From Mesoterricola sediminis (GTDB taxonomy: Bacteria > Acidobacteriota > Holophagae > Holophagales > Holophagaceae), in contig NZ_AP027081.1 of NCBI RefSeq assembly GCF_030295425.1, forward strand, positions 3,393,001 to 3,457,000: a stretch of 64,000 nt of DNA, written 5' to 3'. The notes under the pieces are model-generated. The model worked only from the letters and a program-made list of their open reading frames with translations. It was not told the origin of the DNA and searched no databases. Below are positions 1 to 42,369 of the stretch, piece after piece. Numbering within the stretch: the first letter of the stretch is position 1; each line of letters begins with the position of its first letter. Position numbers and translations under genes: made by a program.

Positions 1-90
1 CAGGTCCGTGACCGGATCGGCGCCCACCGTGAAGCGGTGGAGCTCCATGTCCAGGGGCAGGTCCTTGGCCCAGAGCGGCTTATCGGACAT
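1..90 (-). CDS. argH: Argininosuccinate lyase, N-terminal 30 codons (gene continues off the window)
   Basis: The first 30 codons of a minus-strand gene are visible, beginning MSDKPLWAKDLPLDMELHRF and running on to a TVGADPVTDL stretch. This matches the opening of argininosuccinate lyase, where a 'LW...F..G.D' segment starts the fold. The enzyme splits argininosuccinate into arginine and fumarate in the cytoplasm, the last step of arginine synthesis. The start overlaps the end of the upstream deacylase gene by about 11 bases, as expected for the last gene of the arg operon. The call rests on a short N-terminus plus strong operon context. Confidence 0.75.
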   Translation of the reverse strand, partial: MSDKPLWAKDLPLDMELHRFTVGADPVTDL

Positions 91-31506: not shown

Positions 31507-33102
31507 TCAGAGTTGGAAAGCCGCCAGGGCCTGGGAGAGGTCCTCCGAGATCCGGGCCAGGCCCTGGGCGGTCCGGGCCACCTCCTGGACCGCCACCGAC
31601 ATTTCGTGGGCGCCGGAGGCGGACTGGCCGAGTTCCTGGGTGACTTCCTCCAAGCGCTGGGAGACATCCACGGCCGTCCGCCCCTGCTCCTCGGTGGCGA
31701 CCCCGATCTCTTGCATCATGCGGGCCATGGTGGTGATGGCCTGGTGGATTTCCTCCAGAAGCCGGTTGGCGGTGGCCACGTTCGTTTGGCCCGCCTCCAC
31801 GGCCTCTCGCCCCTCCCCCAGCATCCCTTCGATCTCGATCGCGGCTTGGCGACTGCGCTCGGCCAGCTTGCGCACCTCCTCCGCCACCACCGAGAACCCC
31901 TTGCCATGGGCTCCCGCCTTGGCCGCCTCTATGGCGGCGTTCAGGGACAAGAGGTTGGTCTGCCCGGCGATGGCCTGGATCACCTGGACCGAACGGGCGA
32001 TGGCCTGAGTGGTTTCATGGATGCGCGCCATGCCCCCGGCCATGGCCGACCCCGCCTGGGCGCCCGAAGCGGTGGCCTGGACGGCGGCGTCAGAGCGCCC
32101 AGCCGATTCCCGGACATGACCCGCGACCTGCTGAAGGCTGGCCGTGAACTGGCTGATGGCCGCGGCCACAGCCTCGGTCGAGGCGTGGATGGCCTCGCCG
32201 CCCTTGGCGATCTGGGTGGTGGTCGCGGAGATCTGTTCGGCGGACGCCGACAACTCATTGGCTCCGCTGGCAACAGAGGCGGAGGCGTCCTGCACGTGGC
32301 GGAGGGTCTCCTTCAGGTGGGCCGTCATGCGCTGGAGGGCCCCCACCAGGGTCCCCACCTCGTCCCGGGAGTCCACCCGCAGGTCCACCCGCAGGTCCCC
32401 CTGGGCAATGCGTTCCGCGGCCCGAACGCTTTCCGCGAGAGGACGGGTAATTATGCGCCCGATCCCCAGCCCCAAAGCCACCCCCGCGCCCACCCCACCG
32501 GCCACGAGGAGGACGGTCAGGAGCCAGGTTCGCCCGTAGAGCTGGGCGTTCGTCAGGGTCAGGCGCTCGGAGTGCTCCTGTTTCATTTGGGCCAGCGCGT
32601 CGACGATGCCCTGGACGGGCTGGACCCGCTGGGCCCCCTCCCCCAGCGAAAGCCGGGCAGCCTCCCGAGCCGCGCCCAGGGGTTCCCGGGCCGCCGTCTC
32701 CACAATCCTTCGACTGACAGGCAACCATGCCCGCAGCGTGTCCTCCAGGCGGCTCAAGGTCGCCCGCCCCTTGTCGGTGTAGTAGAGGGGACGGACGCTC
32801 ACCAGGTGCCGCTGGAGGGCAGCCTCGGCGCGGTTGTATTCGGCCAGCCGATTGGCCCTCGTCGATGCATCCGCCGCCAGGATGATGTCCTTTTCGGCCG
32901 CGAGCATGGCCTGGATCTCGGAGCCCGCCTCCTCGGCGAAATACAGCCCGGTCATTTCCGTCCGGAACATCGATTGGCCGTTCTCGTGGAAGGTGGCCAT
33001 GTTCCGCAGGCCCAGGGCTCCGATCAGGAGGCTCATGACGGACATGAACCCGATCAGCGCAAGGAGTTTCTTCTGGATGCTCAGGTCTTTCAGGAATTGC
33101 AT
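31507..33102 (-). CDS. Methyl-accepting chemotaxis protein (next to hemerythrin)
   Basis: A 531-residue chemoreceptor. The first helix is [20 protein letters not shown], the periplasmic four-helix region runs to about residue 190, and the second helix is [26 protein letters not shown] follows ([24 protein letters not shown]). The signalling hairpin tip, [25 protein letters not shown], and [17 protein letters not shown] are intact. It signals to CheA/CheW. It lies 20 bases after a bacteriohemerythrin gene, so oxygen or redox state is a likely input. Confidence 0.92.
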
Positions 33103-33122: not shown

Positions 33123-33542
33123 TCAACCGAGGTTGGTGAGGCCGAGGCCTTTGAGGTACTGGGCGAAGGCCATGTCCCGGACCTGGATGTGTTGGGTCAG
33201 CCAATCCCCGAGGAAGCGCGCCACTTCCAAGGTGCGGAGGTTCGCGGCCTGCCGGTCCCACTGCTCCTTGAACACCCCCACGTCCTGGATGAGCTGATAG
33301 TGCTCAAGGCTGTGGGCGGCCCGCTCCGGGTAGGCATGCCGCTGCATGGCCTCCTCTTCGGTCCGGAAATGGCGAGCGGTGTAGACGACCAGGAAGTCCA
33401 GCGTCTTGCCCACGTGGTCCCGGGGCTGGCCGCTCTGGAGTCCCGCGTAGAAATCGTTCACGGCGGTGAACAGGGTGCGGTGCTGCTCATCGATGGTCGG
33501 GATGCCGGTCATGAATCGGTCGTGCCAGGCAACAAGGGCCAT
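33123..33542 (-). CDS. Bacteriohemerythrin
   Basis: A 139-residue hemerythrin-like protein with the full di-iron ligand set: [16 protein letters not shown] (H, D region), [27 protein letters not shown] (H, E, H, H) and [13 protein letters not shown] (H, D). It binds O2 reversibly and may store, deliver or sense it. It is between the large hybrid kinase (10 bases upstream) and a chemoreceptor (20 bases downstream) in one operon. That arrangement suggests that oxygen binding feeds into taxis or the kinase. Confidence 0.93.
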
Positions 33543-33552
33543 GCGTCCTCCT

Positions 33553-36500
33553 TCAGGGTTCAGGGGTGGGGGGATTGGGCCGGACGGCGGTACGGAGCGC
33601 GGTCCGCAGCTCGGCGGGCGTGAAGGGCTTGGGCAGGAAACAAAGCGTGGGATCGCCCTCCAGCAGGGCGGAGACCTGGGCGTCCATGTGGCCTGAAACG
33701 ACGATCACCGGCTGCCCGGGGCACAACTGCCGGATCCGTGGCAACGTTTGCGGGCCGTTCAGGACGGGCATGTTCATGTCCAGGACCACCACGTCCGGGC
33801 GGAGACCGCTTTCCAACTGCACAAGGGCCTCCAGGCCGTTCTCGGCCGTGCGCACTTCGTGCCCGAGCGCCTCCAGCGCGTCCCGCTGGGCCGCGCGCAC
33901 CAGGGGGTCGTCCTCGACCAGCAGCACCCGGCGCCGCGGGTCGGCGCCCTCGTCCGGAAGCTCCTCGGGGCCCGGCCCCTTCACGGGGAGCACCCGGCTC
34001 GCGGGGAACCGGAGCAGGGCGCGGGTCCCCTCTCCGGGCCGGCTCGTCAGCACCAGCTCGCCGTCGTGGGCCTGCATGGTCCCGTAGACCATGGCGAGGC
34101 CGAGGCCGGTGCCCTTTCCCTGCGGTTTCGTCGTGAAAAACGGCTCCATGGCGCGCTTGAGGACCTCGGGCGGCATGCCCTCCCCGGAGTCGGCCACCTC
34201 CAGGTCCACCGAGCCGTCCGGGCCGGCTCCGGTCCGGAGGAGGAGGGCGCCTCCGGCGGGCATGGCGTCCACCGCGTTCACGCACAGGTTCATGAGGGCA
34301 TGGCTGATGGCCACCCCATCGGCGAGCACCGGCGCCAGATCCGGCTCCAGCTCCAGCCGCACCTGGATCCGCTTGAACGTGGTCGAACTCAGGAGCTGAC
34401 ACACCTCCTGGACCACCTCGTTGAGGTCGGTCCCCTCGGTCCGCGCCAGGCCCTGCCGCGCAAAGAACAGGATGCTCTTCACCACCTCCCGTCCCCGATC
34501 GCAGGCCTTGACGATGGTGCCCATGCGCCGCGCGAGGGCCGACCCGGGCTCCGCCGCGCCCTCCTGGAGGGAGGCGATGGCCAGGATGGCGGCGAGGACA
34601 TTGTTCATGTCGTGGGCGACGCCGCCGGCGAGGATGCCGAGGCTCTCCAGGCGCTGGACCTGCGCCAGGTGGGCTTCCAGCTCGAGCCGGGCCTTCTCCG
34701 AGGCCTTGCGCTCGGTGATGTCCTGGATCACGCCGACCATCCGCTGGACCCGGCCCATGGGATCCAGCTGGAACTCCCCCCAGCCGTGCACCCACCGGGT
34801 CTCCCCGGTGGCGGGCCGGACGATGGCGTATTCCCTGTCGAACCGGGACCGGTCCTCGAGGATCCGGACCAGGTAGGCGCGCATGGCGTCCCGCTGATCC
34901 GGCGCCACCATGGAGATCCAGCCCTCGACGGTCTTCGGGTGGCCGGGGCCGATGCCCAGGATCCGGTCCAGGTTCGGGGTGCAGACCCAGGCGCCGTTCT
35001 CGACGTCGAGGCCGTAGGCCCCCAGGTTGCCCACCGCCTGGGCCTGGTCCAGGATGCCGTTGAGCTCCCGCAGGTCGGCCTCCGCCCGGCGTCGCGCGGC
35101 GTCGCGGTCGAGCTGGCGGATCGCGCTGGACAGATCCCGGGAGACCTCCCGGAGGAGACCCACCCCGGCGCCCGTCAGGCTCGCGGCTTCCGCCGCATGG
35201 ACCACGAGGAGGCCGCGGACCCCCTCTCCCCGGACCAGGGGGAACACCGCTACCGCGGAAAGCCCATCCCAGCCGGGCGCCCAGGGCCGGGGCGGGGCCG
35301 CGTCCCTTCCCGCGCGGAGCACCAGGGCGTGGCCGTCCCGGAGGCTTCGGCCCTGGGGGCCCTCGTCGAGGACGCCCAGATCCGGCGGCGGTCCGCCCTT
35401 TCCGGCCTGCGCGGAGAGGGGCGCCTCCCCGGCCTCCGCCTCCAGGCTGACCCAGGCCCAGGGGAAGCGCCCGGTTTCGGCGAGGATCCGCGGCGTCTTG
35501 CGCAGGAGGTCCGGCAGGTCCCGCGCGTCGGCGATCGCCTGGTGGATGCGCGCCCGGGTCGCGTGGATGCGGTTGAGGCTGCGCATGAGCCGCGCCCGCT
35601 CCCGGGTCTGGGTCAGGTCCCGGACCAGGACCGCGACCCAAGGGATCCCCGCCAGGGTGACCGGGCGGAGGGTCTCCTCCACGGGAAAGAGGGTGCCATC
35701 GCGGTGCTGATGGTGGGTTTCCACCCGGACCATCTGCCGCCGCCGCACCCGCTCCAGAATCGCCGGGAAGGCGGCAGCCTCCATGGCCCCCCGCAAAGCG
35801 CCGAAGGGCAGGCCCCGCAGGGAATCGGACGACCTTCCGTAGGCCGCCTCCGCGCGGGCATTGGCCTCCTGGATCCGGCCCTGGGCGTCCAGGAGGAAGA
35901 CGATGTCGCTGCCCAGGTCCAGGAAGAGGTCCAGGCGGTCCTGCAGGGCCCGCCGTTCCACCCGCGCCTCGAGCCGGGCGCTGGTTTCCGCCTCCGCTTG
36001 CCAGGCCAGCCAGGCCCGGATGGCGAAGGCCGCCCCCGCGCACAGGGCCGCGAGGACCCCGAATTCGCGGATGGATTTGGCGTGGTAGGGCGCCAGGAAC
36101 CCATCAACGCTGGCGGTCGCGGCCAGCATCCACGGGGTCCCCGTCACCGCCAGTTGGTAGGTGAGGTTCTGGCCCCCGCCGGGTGCGTTCAATCGGGTCA
36201 GCCCCGCCGGGGCTTCGGCGAGGCAGCCCCCGAGGGCCCCCGACTGACAGGCTTCCAGGCGGGACGGCGCCTCCCCGGATCCCAATTGGAAGCCGTGCCC
36301 CGGGTGGCCCTGGAACAGGTGGATTCGCATGCGCTGGGAGGCGGCCCAGGCGTCCAGGATCGGCTGGACCGCCTGGGCCGGATCCGTGCGGAGTTCCAGG
36401 GTGCCCATGAGAGCCCCATCCCGGTCGCGCCGGATGGGCACCCACTGCGAAAGGCGGATGCCCCCCCCTGCGTCCCGCAGGGCCAGGGGCGCGGCGCCGC

Positions 36501-37488
36501 CAGGTGGAGGCGCCGCGGGGGGGATGCCCGGCGGCAGGGCCAGGACCCGCCGCCCCGCAGCATCATGGAGCACGAGCGCCTCATAGCCGGCATGCCCCCG
36601 GAGCGCCTCCAGCCACGCGCGGAAGTGCCCTTCCAGGGCCGCCGGATCCTTGAGCACCGGCTCGAAATGTCGGGTGAGCAGATTCCCCGCCGTCAGGAGG
36701 GTGGCATCCGCCCGCCGGTCCCGGTGCCACCCCGCCAGATCCAGGGCCTTCAGGGTCCCGATGGCCTGGAGCTCGGCGCTCTGGGCCCGCCACTCCCGGT
36801 CTACCTCCACCCGGAGACGGCGGGTTCCGGCCACCCCGAGGATGGCCGTGATGCCGAGGTAGCCCAGGAAGGCCGAGAGGGCCAGTTCCTGGCCCTCCGA
36901 ACGCTTCGCGGGCCTGCCGAAGAGCGCGAGGGGCCAGGCCCGGAGGCCGAGCCGCAGGATGAGGCCGGCCCCCAGCAGCCACAGCAGCAGGGCCGCCCCT
37001 GGCTCCAGGCCCCAGCCCGGCCCGACGCCGAGGGGATGGGGCAGCCCGGCCAGATGGTGGTAGATCCCGAACCCGCCCAGAAGCAGGGGCACCAGGCCCA
37101 GGGTCGCGGCCAGGTGGGGGCGATGGCGGGCGGCCCCCTCCGCCGCCGCCAGGGCCAGCCCCGCGGCGGCCACGGGCCCCGTGAGCCCCCAGGCCGCCGC
37201 CGGCGCCCCAGGCCCCCGGAGGACATGGGCCGCGGTTCCCGCCACCAGCAGGACCCCGAGGGCCGCCAGCAGGGCCTGCTGGACCCGGGGCCCCACCGTG
37301 GGGACCTCGGCGAGGAGCAGGGCGAGGCTCAGCCCCCCGAGGCAGGCCGATTCAAGCCCCCCCAGCCTCAGGACGGGGCTGCCGGAAAGAAAGCCGACAA
37401 CCCCCAGCCAGGCGGTGGCGCTCGCCATGAGGAGGCACCCGCGCGCCGGATGGGTCATCGGATGGAGGTGCTCGTTCGGGGGATTCAT
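33553..37488 (-). CDS. Large hybrid sensor histidine kinase with PAS, GAF and receiver domains
   Basis: A 1,311-residue hybrid kinase. From the N-terminus: several membrane helices (to about residue 220), a long extracytoplasmic Cache-like sensor (about 230-480), one more helix, a PAS domain ([22 protein letters not shown]), a GAF-like domain, a second PAS with the PAC end [12 protein letters not shown], HisKA with H959 in [13 protein letters not shown], HATPase ([20 protein letters not shown]), and a receiver with D1237 in [13 protein letters not shown]. The start is the ATG behind CCGGAGCTGC; a GTG 27 bases upstream falls inside a terminator. Hemerythrin and chemoreceptor genes follow in the same operon. 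Confidence 0.9.
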
Positions 37489-37503
37489 GCAGCTCCGGAA
37501 AAC

Positions 37504-37546
37504 GAAAAAAGGCACAACCGCCGCGACCAGCGCGGCAGTTGTGCCT
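37504..37546 (-). terminator. Intrinsic terminator immediately before the hybrid kinase ribosome-binding site
   Basis: On the minus strand AGGCACAACTGCCGCG-ctggt-CGCGGCGGTTGTGCCT pairs 15 of 16 positions and is followed at once by TTTTTT. This is a textbook Rho-independent terminator. It ends only about 16 bases before the kinase start and leaves no room for a promoter between them. It can serve the upstream response-regulator operon, but its place in the kinase leader also points to controlled read-through. Confidence 0.85.
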
Positions 37547-37618
37547 AACGACTTGCGGATTCCTCAGCACCCGCCCGTCAAGGCGTCCCACTCAACAAGC
37601 GGAACGAATTTGAGCGGA
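37547..37618 (-). promoter_or_regulatory. Structured leader of the hybrid kinase, possible riboswitch or attenuator
   Basis: Between the proposed promoter and the terminator the transcript can fold CCGCTCAA (37,617-37,610) with TTGAGTGG (37,595-37,588), then further small stems (CGCC/GGCG, GCGG/CCGC). GAGTGGGACGCC recalls part of the c-di-GMP-I aptamer, but the other conserved parts (such as AGGGCAAACC) are absent, so I do not assign a known class. Confidence 0.4.
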
Positions 37619-37648
37619 AGTGTAAATTAAGTTACAGCATGTTGTCAA
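37619..37648 (-). promoter_or_regulatory. Possible sigma-70 promoter for the hybrid kinase operon
   Basis: On the minus strand TTGACA (37,648-37,643) and TACACT (37,624-37,619) are separated by 18 bases in an AT-rich patch. The -35 is a perfect consensus and the -10 matches 4 of 6. A transcript from here would have a leader of roughly 120 bases including the terminator hairpin. Confidence 0.5.
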
Positions 37649-37690: not shown

Positions 37691-38440
37691 TCACACCTTC
37701 AGCAGGTGCTCGAGGTTCTGCCGCACCTGGGCCAGGCTGCGCGATTTGAAGGCGTTCTTCGTGCGTTCCAGGATCTGCACGCAGTCCTGGATGACCTCCC
37801 GGTGCACCGCCATGCGCGGGCAGCGCTCCACCCTGCACGTGGCGAGGTCCGCGGCCTGATCCCGGGTCAGGTCGAGGAGCGTCTGCATGTCCAGCAGGGT
37901 GCCTGCGAGGTTTCCCACCGCCAGCCGAAGGAAGTCGTGAGCCATGCTGATCTCCCCCACCTGGGCGCCGGACGGGATGCGGGACCGCATGAGGCGGAGA
38001 TCCTCGTTCCAGTGGGCCAGACGATCCTGGCTGTCGCGGATGACGCGCCGCACCCGGGTCTCTTTCACGACCTTCCGCACCTGGTCCACTAGGTCGGGGA
38101 AGGGCACGGGCTTCACCATGTAGGCCGCCACCGGAAGCTGGATGGCGTCGATCGCCGTCTCCAGCGCCGGGAAGGCCGTCACGAGGATCACCTGGACGCA
38201 GGGATCGAGGGCCGCCGCGGACCGCACGAAGGCGAGGCCGTCCTCCCCCGCCAGCAGGATGTCGGAAATGATCCCATCGAAGGGCCGGCTGCCCATCAGG
38301 ACCAGCGCCTCGGCCGAGTCCGCCGCGGTCTGGACCTCGAATCCGCTTCGCGCAAGGAGTTCGGCCGTACTTTCCCGGAAGGTCTGTTCGTCGTCCAGCA
38401 GGAGAATGCGGTCGCATCCCTGGCAGGGTTGGGTGGTCAT
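37691..38440 (-). CDS. Response regulator with C-terminal helical domain of unknown type
   Basis: A 249-residue protein. The N-terminal receiver (about 8-130) has the acid pocket LLLDDEQ, the phospho-acceptor D60 in GIISDILLAGEDG, and the conserved Lys in AAYMVKPVPFPD. The remaining 120 residues are helical (MAHDFLRLAVGNLAGTLLDMQTLL...) with no DNA-binding or enzyme motif that I recognise, so output may be by protein contact. It overlaps the kinase gene upstream by 4 bases and is surely its partner. Confidence 0.85.
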   Translation of the reverse strand: MTTQPCQGCDRILLLDDEQTFRESTAELLARSGFEVQTAADSAEALVLMGSRPFDGIISDILLAGEDGLAFVRSAAALDPCVQVILVTAFPALETAIDAIQLPVAAYMVKPVPFPDLVDQVRKVVKETRVRRVIRDSQDRLAHWNEDLRLMRSRIPSGAQVGEISMAHDFLRLAVGNLAGTLLDMQTLLDLTRDQAADLATCRVERCPRMAVHREVIQDCVQILERTKNAFKSRSLAQVRQNLEHLLKV

Positions 38441-40728
38441 GGGGGCGTCTCCGGTTTGAGCAGGGCTCCCGGCCCCGACCCGTGGGACAGGGGGATCCTG
38501 GCGTGAAAGGTGCAGCCCCCGCCGTCGCCGTTGGCGTGGGACAGGTTTCCGCCCATGACTTCCAGAAGCCGGCGCGAGATGGAGAGGCCCAGGCCGAGGC
38601 CGCTCTCCGCGCCGCCCTTCTTGGTGGTGAAGCCCGGTTCCAGGATTCGCTCCCGCCAGGCCTCGGGCACCCCGGCGCCCTCGTCGGTGACGTCCAGGCA
38701 GAGCGTATCCCCCTCGATCCGGGCGCCGCAGGTGATCCGGCCGCCCTGGGGCGAGGCATCGATGGCGTTCTGGACAAGGTTGTACAGGACCTGGCGGATG
38801 GGGTTCACGTGGACGACCGCGCGCAGGGCGGGATCGGGGAGGTCCAGGCAGAGTTCGGCCTTCCGGGCCCGGGCCCGGGTCGCCAGCAGGGTCTGCACGT
38901 CCCGCAGCATCCCGGCCACCTCCGTGTCCACGGGGGTGTAGTCCACGGGCCGGTTCAGTTCGTAGAGCACCTTCACGATCGTACTGATGCGGCCGATCTC
39001 GACCTTGATGAGATCCGCGAAGCGCCGGTCGGGGTGATCGGCAGGAATGGCGGCCTCGACCAGGAGAAAGGCGTTCTGGATGCCCGCCAGGGGCCCGTTG
39101 ATCTCGTGGGCGACATAGGCCGCCATCTTCCCCTTGGCGATCTGGGCCTCCATGGCCACGCCCATCAGCTCCTGCCGGCGGCGCTGGGTGACGTCCTGGA
39201 TCGTGCCCATCAGCGTCCCCCGGGTGCAGGGGGGCCCAGGCTCCCGCTGGACGCGGACATGGACCCAGAGGCCCGGACCCATCCCGCCGCCCCCGATGGC
39301 CATCTCCTCCTGGAAGCGGGGATCCGCCTCCATCCCGGCCCGAAGCCAGCGGTCGAAGGCTTCCGAATGCAGGATCTCCCGCAGCTGCCCGATCACCCTG
39401 GGCGGGGCCTCCTCCAGGCCCAGAAGGCGGTTGAGCGTGACCGAGGTCTCCACCTTGCCGGTCCCCAAGTCCACGCAGAAATGCCCCAGGCGCGCCAGCT
39501 CCTGGGCCTCCCGCAGGGCCCACTCGCTGCGCCGGAGCGCCTCGAGGGCCAGTTGCCGCTCGGTGATGTCATGGACGATCGAAAAGAGCGCATCCTCCCC
39601 CCGCACGTGGATCGGCACGCTTTCCACCGAGACCGTGCGGATCAGGCCGCTCGCCAACCGGTGGGGGAACACGAACCGGTTGTGGCGGGAGGTCGTGGCC
39701 CGGGCGAGCTCATCGAGGACGAATTCCTTCGACAGCAGGTTGATGTCGCTGATGACCATGCGCTTCAGCTCGTCCAGCGGATAGCCGTAGAACGCGCTGG
39801 CCGCGGGGTTCGCGGCCAGGATCTGACCGTCCCGGGGCCGGATCAGCAGCATGATCGCCGTGTGGCTCTCGAACATCAGGCGGAAGCGGTGCTCGCTCTC
39901 CGAGAGTCGGTCCCGGATGGCCTTCTCCTCCGTGATGTCCTGGGTGGTGACGATGCGCACCCACTCCCCGCGAAGCGTGGTCGTCCGACCCGACAGGCTG
40001 CCCCAGAAGGTGCGCCCCGACAGGCTCCGCATCCGGCATTCCAGGCGGTCGACCTTGCCCGTCGCCTGGAGGCCCGCCACGAACGCCTCGAGGCAGGCGG
40101 GGTCCTCATAGACGGTGCCCGCCGTCTCCCCTTCGAGGGAATCCAGCTGGAGCCCGAGCAGGGCGATGGCGGGCGGGTTCGCGTAGAGGATCTTCTGGGT
40201 GACCATCGAGACCACGGTGATGGGCAGAGGGGATTCATCCACCGTGTCCACCGCCAGGTGCAGGCTGTCGGCCTGCCGCGCCTCCTTGCGCGCCGCCTCC
40301 GTCACGTCCTCGGCGTAGCCCCGGAACCCCAGGAATCGGCCATCCTGTCCCCGCTGGGGCACCGCCCGGCAAAGCCAGGTCCTGTCCCCGTCCAGGCCCG
40401 CCCTGAAACGGATGGCCAGGGGAAGCCGCGCCGCCAGCGCCTCCTCCCAGGCGGCCCTGCAGGGCTCCCGGTCCGGCCCCCAGACTTCATCCAGCCAGAC
40501 GGGAGGCGCGGGTGCGCCCGTCGCATCCGTCTCCCAGAAGACAAGGTGGGGGGTTCCATCCAGGCGGAGGAACCCTGTCGCCTCGCGGCGCGGGTCCCGG
40601 GGGGCACCCTCGAGGGCCTGTTTGCGGAAGGGAGCCAAGATCATCTCCTGGGAACATTCGGGAGCCCGCGCGAACCCAGGGGGCGAACCGCCCCCCACCG
40701 CCCCGGCTCCGGTGGACGTGGCAGACAT
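38437..40728 (-). CDS. Soluble multi-PAS sensor histidine kinase
   Basis: A 763-residue kinase without membrane helices. Four PAS-type segments run from about residue 40 to 510, seen by their PAC ends: GFRGYAEDVTEAA, VTTQDITEEKA, SIVHDITERQ and GTIQDVTQRR. HisKA follows with H541 in AYVAHEINGPLAGI, then HATPase with NLVQNAIDASPQGG, DVTDEGAGVPE and the GLGLGLSISRRLLEVMGG lid. It should phosphorylate the response regulator encoded just downstream (4-base overlap). A chemoreceptor gene is 57 bases upstream on the same strand. Cytosolic PAS input suggests an internal redox or ligand cue. Confidence 0.9.
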   Translation of the reverse strand: MSATSTGAGAVGGGSPPGFARAPECSQEMILAPFRKQALEGAPRDPRREATGFLRLDGTPHLVFWETDATGAPAPPVWLDEVWGPDREPCRAAWEEALAARLPLAIRFRAGLDGDRTWLCRAVPQRGQDGRFLGFRGYAEDVTEAARKEARQADSLHLAVDTVDESPLPITVVSMVTQKILYANPPAIALLGLQLDSLEGETAGTVYEDPACLEAFVAGLQATGKVDRLECRMRSLSGRTFWGSLSGRTTTLRGEWVRIVTTQDITEEKAIRDRLSESEHRFRLMFESHTAIMLLIRPRDGQILAANPAASAFYGYPLDELKRMVISDINLLSKEFVLDELARATTSRHNRFVFPHRLASGLIRTVSVESVPIHVRGEDALFSIVHDITERQLALEALRRSEWALREAQELARLGHFCVDLGTGKVETSVTLNRLLGLEEAPPRVIGQLREILHSEAFDRWLRAGMEADPRFQEEMAIGGGGMGPGLWVHVRVQREPGPPCTRGTLMGTIQDVTQRRRQELMGVAMEAQIAKGKMAAYVAHEINGPLAGIQNAFLLVEAAIPADHPDRRFADLIKVEIGRISTIVKVLYELNRPVDYTPVDTEVAGMLRDVQTLLATRARARKAELCLDLPDPALRAVVHVNPIRQVLYNLVQNAIDASPQGGRITCGARIEGDTLCLDVTDEGAGVPEAWRERILEPGFTTKKGGAESGLGLGLSISRRLLEVMGGNLSHANGDGGGCTFHARIPLSHGSGPGALLKPETPP

Positions 40729-40785: not shown

Positions 40786-42369
40786 TCAGGACACCTTGAA
40801 CTGGCCCAGCGTCTGGGACAGGTCGTCGGACACCTTCGCGAGGGTCGAAGCCGTTCGGGCAATCTCCTCCACCGTGGCGGCCATCTGCTGGGTGGCCGCG
40901 GCGTTCTGTTCCATTTCCCGGCTCACGCCTTCCACCCGTCGCGCCACCTCCTCAGACGTGGTGGCCTGTTCCAGGGTCGCCGATCCGATGCCCAGCAGCA
41001 CCTCCGAGACCGAGCGGATGGCACCCCGGATCTGCCCCAGCTGCTCCTGGGTGGTACCGACAGCGGACAGGCCGCCCTCCACCGCGTCGTGGCTCTCCAC
41101 CAGCAGGCCCTCGATTTCAATGGCCGATTGCCGACTCCGCTCCGCCAGTTTCCGGACCTCCTCCGCGACGACCGCGAAGCCCTTGCCGTGGTCCCCCGCC
41201 TTGGCCGCCTCGATGGCCGCGTTCAACGACAGGAGGTTGGTCTGCTGGGCCATCTCCTGGATCACGAGGATGGCCTTCCGGATGTTGGCCGTGGTCTCCT
41301 TGATGCGGCCCATCCCCTCAGCCATTCGCTCGCCAGCGCGATGTCCTTCCTCCGTGTGTTTCACGGACAGCTCCGAGTGGCGAACCGAATCCTGGGCGTG
41401 GCCCGCGACTTGATGAACGCTCGCGGAGAGCTGGGACACGGCGGCGGCCATGGACTGGGTGGAGCGGTGCGTCAGCTCGCTCCCCTTGGCGATCTGGTCC
41501 GTCGTGGCGGTCATCTCCTCCGCCGAGGCGGACAGCTCCGTGGCTCCGCTGGCGACGGAGAGGGCCGCCGACGAGACCTGCCGGAGGGCCGCACTCAGGC
41601 TTTCCAGCGCCAGGTTCAAGGAGCGTCCCAATTGGCCCGTTTCGTCCTCCGCGCCCTGGTCGGCCCGCACCCTCAGGTCGCCGGTGGCCACCTGGCCCAG
41701 GACAGCCATGAAGGAACGGAGGGGTTCCGTGATGCTCCGCGTGATGAACCACGCCGCGGCCACTCCGGCCGCCAGGGCCACCAGGCCCAGCATGGCCATG
41801 GCCGCCGTGCCCGACTGGCGCGCCTTCGCGGCATGGGCGTACCCCTTTTGGATCTGGGTCTCCGTGAAGGCGGAGAGGGCTTTCAGGTCCTCCAGCCACT
41901 TGTCGTTGTCGGCCCGTGCCTCCCCCAGGAGCAGGACCGCCGCCTCCTTCCGTTGCCCTTGGCTCCCGAGCTGGATGATCCGGTCGTTGGCCTCCCGAGT
42001 AACGCGGGCCTGTTGCTGGACCGTGCGGTGCAACGCCTTGGCCTCCTCGGAGATCAGGAGGGTCTCCAGTTCCTCGCTGGCCTGGTTATAAGCGGCCCGC
42101 GCCGCGTGGATCCTTTCGATCATCTGGGCCGTTTCCCGAGGATCCTCCGTCAGGAGCAGGGTCCGCATGAACCTCTGGACCCCCTGCACCTCGATCTCCA
42201 TGCCCGTCGCGAGGCGATTCTCCCGCGCGTAGACCTGGGCGACGCGCCGGAGATCCTCCCCCATCCGGCCCATCTGGATCACTGCGAAAAGGCTGGCGAT
42301 GGAGAACAGGGCAATCACGGTTCCGAAGGCTGCATAAAGCCGCTGCCCGATCTGGAATCGCTTCAGCAT
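40786..42369 (-). CDS. Methyl-accepting chemotaxis protein (4HB type)
   Basis: A 527-residue chemoreceptor: first helix [21 protein letters not shown], a four-helix-bundle periplasmic sensor ([27 protein letters not shown]...), second helix [24 protein letters not shown] ([24 protein letters not shown]), and a signalling tip [25 protein letters not shown] with [17 protein letters not shown]. The C-terminal half is strongly similar to the receptor at 31,507, which points to duplication of the signalling part with a different sensor. It heads the operon with the multi-PAS kinase and response regulator. Confidence 0.92.

Follow-up and report, generated by a model that had tools for sequence, protein, structure and literature searches.

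A conserved leader RNA overlapping an intrinsic terminator tracks an unannotated response-regulator domain and may be the target of a two-component antitermination system

In front of a hybrid histidine kinase gene of Mesoterricola sediminis lies a real, conserved and regulatory feature, namely a leader RNA of a family that Rfam 15 does not contain, which overlaps an intrinsic terminator and whose presence among genomes follows that of a response regulator whose C-terminal domain is unannotated (hereafter FKSK, after a motif within this domain). The conserved RNA and the base pairs within it, its overlap with the terminator, its association with the FKSK protein and the promoters were established by computation. 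We propose, with a probability of roughly two in three, a model of two-component antitermination with the leader as its cis target, whereby the FKSK protein would bind the nascent leader, stabilise its P2 stem and block the terminator.

The window (the whole 64,000-nt stretch of M. sediminis DNA analysed here) carries the promoter, leader, terminator and genes of this locus on the minus strand (Table 1). An earlier note on this DNA had described a consensus-like promoter, a structured leader and a terminator next to the start codon, with no promoter fitting behind it, and all of these elements were recovered in our analysis. For the 128-nt leader, the computed folding energy is -60.2 kcal/mol as compared to -44.6 ± 4.1 kcal/mol for shuffled sequences (z -3.8), thereby surpassing all 200 shuffles. 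The terminator stem (37546-37510) comprises 16 bp, 11 of them G-C, and its T-run (TTTTTT, 37510-37505) ends 16 nt before the ATG of the hybrid kinase at 37488; no promoter fits between this T-run and the ATG. Likewise, the proposed operon content (hybrid kinase, hemerythrin protein and chemoreceptor) is confirmed by domain annotation.

Table 1. Features of the leader locus (coordinates are positions in the window)
Feature	Coordinates	Strand	Evidence or remark
Promoter-like TTGACA-18-TACACT	37619..37648	-	Sole sigma-70-type match in 1 kb (0.1 expected)
Conserved leader RNA, ~66 nt (P1 hairpin and P2/P3 arm)	37543..37608	-	R2 match, 57 bits, E 5e-11 (R2 training set includes this leader); covariation
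P1 hairpin, GTTCCGCTT-GTT-GAGTGGGAC	37585..37605	-	9/9 pairs covary across the family
P2/P3 arm: GCCTT..AGGC outer stem, CGG/AAGT internal loop, GCGGGT/ATCCGC inner stem	37543..37584	-	12/14 pairs covary
Intrinsic terminator	37505..37546	-	Shares its first 4 nt with the 3′ end of P2
Hybrid histidine kinase (PAS, GAF, HATPase, receiver), first gene after the leader	33553..37488	-	The same leader also precedes the orthologues in G002 and G005
Hemerythrin-domain protein	33123..33542	-	Domain annotation
Chemoreceptor (4HB_MCP, HAMP, MCPsignal)	31507..33102	-	Domain annotation
FKSK response regulator (receiver, long coil, unannotated C-terminal helical domain), proposed trans-acting factor	37691..38440	-	
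PAS histidine kinase	38437..40728	-	Stop overlaps the FKSK regulator start

The PAS histidine kinase preceding the FKSK regulator is probably its cognate kinase, and the operon shared by these two genes is headed by a second chemoreceptor gene (4HB_MCP-HAMP-MCPsignal, 40786-42369). Elsewhere in the same genome, a second leader (G000:C1:2558058-2558116, plus strand; locus L120, 6059-6117) is found behind its own FKSK regulator and before a receiver-containing kinase-like protein of ~1250 aa.

Leaders with 77-81% identity to the one in the window precede the kinase orthologue in two genomes of the same genus (G002 and G005), and in G005 a second copy precedes a duplicated response-regulator gene. 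A four-copy alignment, by itself insufficient to prove pairing, outlines a P1 hairpin followed by GCCTT-GAC-GG-(hairpin P3)-AA-GTC-GT-AAGGC and a terminator starting in AAGGC. R1, a model built from these four same-genus copies, retrieved about 35 leader copies in 20 genomes of the window's family. In a 53-row alignment that includes copies from other phyla, 94% of the cells are paired and compensatory double changes are found in 21 of the 23 pairs, with 171 double-change cells (shuffled: 40 ± 6) and values that drop sharply when the partner is slid; these figures lean slightly upward, since the alignment was fitted to the structure and contains, with L052 (plus strand), a probable antisense chance match. 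The CGG/AAGU internal loop is near-invariant across phyla and the P2 strand is also conserved, whilst P1 and P3 vary in sequence with their pairing kept. The terminal loops are variable (3-5 nt in P1; in P3 variable in both length and sequence). The leader structure, on whose presence in relatives the earlier note had made its proposal depend, is shared by them.

Several candidates were rejected. R1 matches in G099, G015, G257 and G270 were discarded for lack of the core, and weak DNA matches of ~22 nt in G001 and G028 are due to chance, being unrelated sequence devoid of the fold. An integron attC site, suggested by GTTAGGC, was ruled out, as both G005 copies lie between signalling genes and have promoters and terminators. 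As a separate observation, four species of the genus (loci L112, L113, L114 and L115) carry paired leaders ~3.9 kb apart, one before a large kinase-like gene and the other before a cluster with a CheA-like gene.

The 3′ strand of the P2/P3 arm doubles as the 5′ base of the terminator, and a crude scan indicates that the 5′ arm of the terminator includes the P2 end in at least 48 of 59 copies; a few Holophagaceae copies are devoid of a good T-run. For the window, the two structures are computed to be mutually exclusive, with -58.9 kcal/mol for the terminator form versus -53.3 kcal/mol for the P2-intact form. Since the terminator form is lower in energy, termination is the equilibrium default, and a bound factor would favour read-through. 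With regard to the promoters, three of the four same-genus copies have TTGACN-17/18-TAnnnT upstream, the G005a copy carrying a weaker version (TTGACG-18-TAACAT), and the related pattern TTGAC-17..20-TAnnnT is found upstream of 12 of 50 leaders (0.1 ± 0.3 in shuffles). A sigma-28/FliA-like pattern, [CT]T[AC]A[AG]G-N~15-CCGAT/A, precedes 16 of 50 leaders (mostly at 18-21 nt) versus 0.75 ± 0.75 in shuffles, a significance somewhat inflated by the fact that the pattern was composed after inspecting the sequences. Promoters of this type fit chemotaxis and motility targets.

Most leader copies are directly preceded, on their own strand, by the gene of a response regulator with the C-terminal sequence LExTK-x-(A/S)FKSKELGxLRxxLE. 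No family for this C-terminal domain is present in Pfam or NCBIfam, and no relative of it was retrieved by a sequence search of the PDB. Conservation reaches 90% or more for the receiver residues D16, D17, D60, T88 and K110 across 27 regulators. In the AlphaFold2 model (pLDDT 87), the receiver is followed by a long coil helix and then by three more helices, and the FKSK motif occupies the turn of the final hairpin; a Foldseek search with the full-length model places receivers on top and the RNA-bound EutV structure (6ww6) 27th, with a TM-score of 0.53. Modelled alone, the FKSK domain is predicted with low confidence to form three helices (pTM 0.44), and a structure search with this model gave no match at E≤0.001. 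Its best match, phage LUZ24 Gp4 (Z 7.1, rmsd 1.7, 46 aligned), falls within a range common for helical hairpins. ANTAR is missing from the domain-alone match list, which is not evidence against ANTAR.

In the Pseudomonas versions of the FKSK protein the receiver is truncated, so that control by phosphorylation cannot be universal, and the domain also occurs as stand-alone proteins of roughly 100 aa in Pseudomonas and Thermodesulfobacteria. The FKSK domain (window gene 37691-38440) has a conserved C-x4-C(P/R) motif in most members, and this Cys pair could be a redox or metal site.

Within the window's family (77 genomes, many of the surveyed genomes being fragmented drafts), an FKSK-domain profile detects the regulator in 20 genomes, and a search with R2 at E<1e-3 finds the leader in those same 20 genomes plus G003. 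The leader is therefore present in 20/20 genomes with the regulator versus 1/57 without it (Fisher p 1e-17, shared ancestry ignored). An R2 match in G067 (E 0.003) looks like chance. This co-occurrence is in part co-inherited, most leaders being physically linked to the regulator gene; within genus g4, presence is patchy (10 of about 44 genomes). As judged by contig and distance, 11 leaders are located far from any regulator, all of them in regulator-bearing genomes, as compared to a single one in the 57 other genomes. This exception is G003, a draft (94% complete, 8% contamination) with a leader at L205 1501-1563 in which the FKSK gene was not detected. The confinement of unlinked leaders to regulator genomes, G003 aside, fits a trans-acting factor. 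Single regulators also accompany several leaders, five in G004 and three in G001.

A scan for the FKSK domain across 84,980 species yielded 60 loci in many phyla. An R1 leader is found beside the FKSK gene in Zipacnadia, Latescibacterota, Nitrospirae, KSB1, Thiotrichales, Alcanivoracaceae, Opitutaceae (Verrucomicrobia) and Pseudomonas, as well as in another acidobacterium, a deltaproteobacterium and one further bacterium, nearly always downstream of the FKSK gene and on the same strand. A Pseudomonadaceae clade model detects the leader in 92/398 genomes. Searching from the RNA side in this family, a gene for an FKSK/FRSR protein (~105 aa) ends 28-48 nt upstream of the leader in 30 of 35 loci, these being the best-scoring of those found and some belonging to the training set; culturable Pseudomonas species hold a single leader next to the ~105-aa protein. 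In another family of the window's phylum, G337 carries a leader outside the training set (E 4e-8), 3.6 kb from the FKSK gene and before a chemoreceptor-like start. In five further genomes of the f28 family, which carry a distant FKSK gene, no leader was found near this gene, nor was one found directly behind the gene at several Planctomycetes, Bdellovibrionales and other FKSK loci. The genes downstream of leaders elsewhere encode CheW, CheA, Hpt, a globin chemoreceptor, truncated haemoglobin, a protoglobin-GGDEF-EAL protein, NifX-like and DUF2325 proteins and a periplasmic binding protein.

Two further groups of small FKSK proteins were noted. In Stutzerimonas, a 54-aa protein comprising little beyond the FKSK hairpin is encoded before an Aer-like PAS receptor gene, and weak leader-like matches upstream of this mini-gene (L190 5790-5852, L194 245-307 and L197 5801-5863) hint at possible autoregulation. 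Thermodesulfobacteria-type FKSK proteins of ~97 aa, some with the Cys motif, are encoded at L175, L178, L180 and L187, and several genes of this type are followed by a variant element GTCTTACGG..AAAGTGAAGGC and a terminator, before NifX-like/DUF2325 genes; these variants were spotted by eye only and lie outside the models.

According to the proposed model, RNA polymerase would start at the promoter, produce P1 and the P2/P3 arm and then reach the terminator. Unaided, the terminator would recapture the 3′ strand of P2 (AGGC), and transcription would halt before the kinase gene. The active FKSK regulator would bind the P1-P2/P3 RNA around the CGG/AAGU loop by means of its C-terminal domain and keep P2 closed, so that the terminator would lose its base, the T-run would be displaced and polymerase would read through into the kinase-hemerythrin-chemoreceptor operon. 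Phosphorylation by the upstream PAS kinase would switch the regulator. We infer the contact between FKSK and the RNA, the sign of the effect (antitermination as opposed to stabilised termination), the phosphorylation switch and the signal; as for the nature of the latter, the Cys pair and the recurring targets that bind O2/NO through haem or iron hint, speculatively, at redox or gas. We give slightly better than even odds to the wider proposal that FKSK represents a second, independent class of RNA-binding response regulators, present across several phyla and antiterminating motility, chemotaxis and O2/NO-sensor genes, with stand-alone forms possibly sensing redox or metal via the Cys pair. 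In the open-access literature we could not find a description of an antiterminator of this kind, nor anything on FKSK motifs, a new RNA-binding output domain, globin-coupled sensors with terminators or Geothrix riboswitches, absence from Rfam and Pfam being no proof that it is undescribed.

The earlier note had called the leader riboswitch-like, a description which holds for the regulated read-through and for the aptamer-like part overlapping the terminator; small-molecule sensing, in contrast, is unsupported, as the RNA tracks a response regulator both by adjacency and by genome-wide presence or absence. In a small-molecule riboswitch, P1-P2/P3 would bind a metabolite or second messenger and stabilise P2, the FKSK regulator travelling along as a member of the same regulon. 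The overlap of aptamer and terminator is indeed the classic layout, the targets include c-di-GMP- or chemotaxis-related signalling genes, and the conserved internal loop could form a pocket. However, Rfam 15 returned no gathering-level match in the window, at the Holophagaceae loci or in other phyla, and at a relaxed threshold none that was meaningful (only chance matches near the leader in the window and its relatives, with E≤10 around the leader), in agreement with the earlier note, in which neither c-di-GMP, TPP nor any other class checked by eye fitted. Moreover, a riboswitch would leave unexplained why one protein domain tracks the RNA, both in genomes whose leaders are unlinked and all the way from Acidobacteria to Pseudomonas. 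We therefore regard such a riboswitch as unlikely, and less likely than an antiterminator controlled by a response regulator. It is quite improbable that FKSK belongs to the same signalling pathway but makes no contact with the RNA, the terminator being controlled by another factor (a general RNA-binding protein, an sRNA or an RNA-polymerase-associated factor): no RNA-binding fold is recognisable in the FKSK domain, as this explanation would expect, but with a general factor there would be no need for the leader to be missing from almost every FKSK-less genome. A reading of the element as nothing more than the regulator gene's own 3′ end, with a terminator, incidental structure and no regulatory role, accords with its location just after this gene and yet is practically negligible as an explanation, given that promoters precede the leader, some unlinked copies have no regulator gene upstream, P1, P2 and P3 covary and the next start codon follows the terminator after 16 nt.

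The target of most response regulators is DNA, and ANTAR is the RNA-binding output domain described in the open-access literature reached. ANTAR proteins mediate two-component antitermination in EutV/EutW, AmiR and NasR, and their target RNA consists of two small hairpins with hexanucleotide loops carrying A at position 1 and G at position 4 (PMC3369931). The system proposed here resembles them in its response regulator with a coil and a C-terminal helical output (AlphaFold2 model), in its two-hairpin leader, the second hairpin of which is mutually exclusive with an intrinsic terminator, and in the co-occurrence of protein and RNA across genomes. Together with the high TM-score of the EutV-RNA structure among the full-length matches, this layout would accommodate a very divergent ANTAR system, with FKSK as an ANTAR relative and the leader as a modified dual hairpin. 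We consider this highly improbable, since the ANTAR model PF03861 matches none of 27 FKSK domains in Pfam at E≤10, the alignment to EutV (6wsh) does not extend beyond model residue 173 and leaves out the FKSK hairpin, and the leader is conserved in its CGG/AAGU internal loop, its short and variable terminal loops being devoid of the A1/G4 hexaloop. The targets differ as well, being chemotaxis, kinase and haem/O2-sensor genes for FKSK and, as reported, mostly nitrogen-metabolism operons for ANTAR. With transcriptional riboswitches such as c-di-GMP-I, the leader shares a conserved aptamer-like part overlapping a terminator before signalling genes, but differs in matching no Rfam 15 family and in tracking a regulator protein. 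Taken together, the pairing of leader and regulator across distant groups suggests an undescribed route by which two-component signalling controls genes via RNA; if true, FKSK would be a second RNA-reading module besides ANTAR, extending from Acidobacteria to Pseudomonas, tied to chemotaxis, c-di-GMP and globin/hemerythrin genes, and accounting at once for a set of unannotated proteins and leaders.
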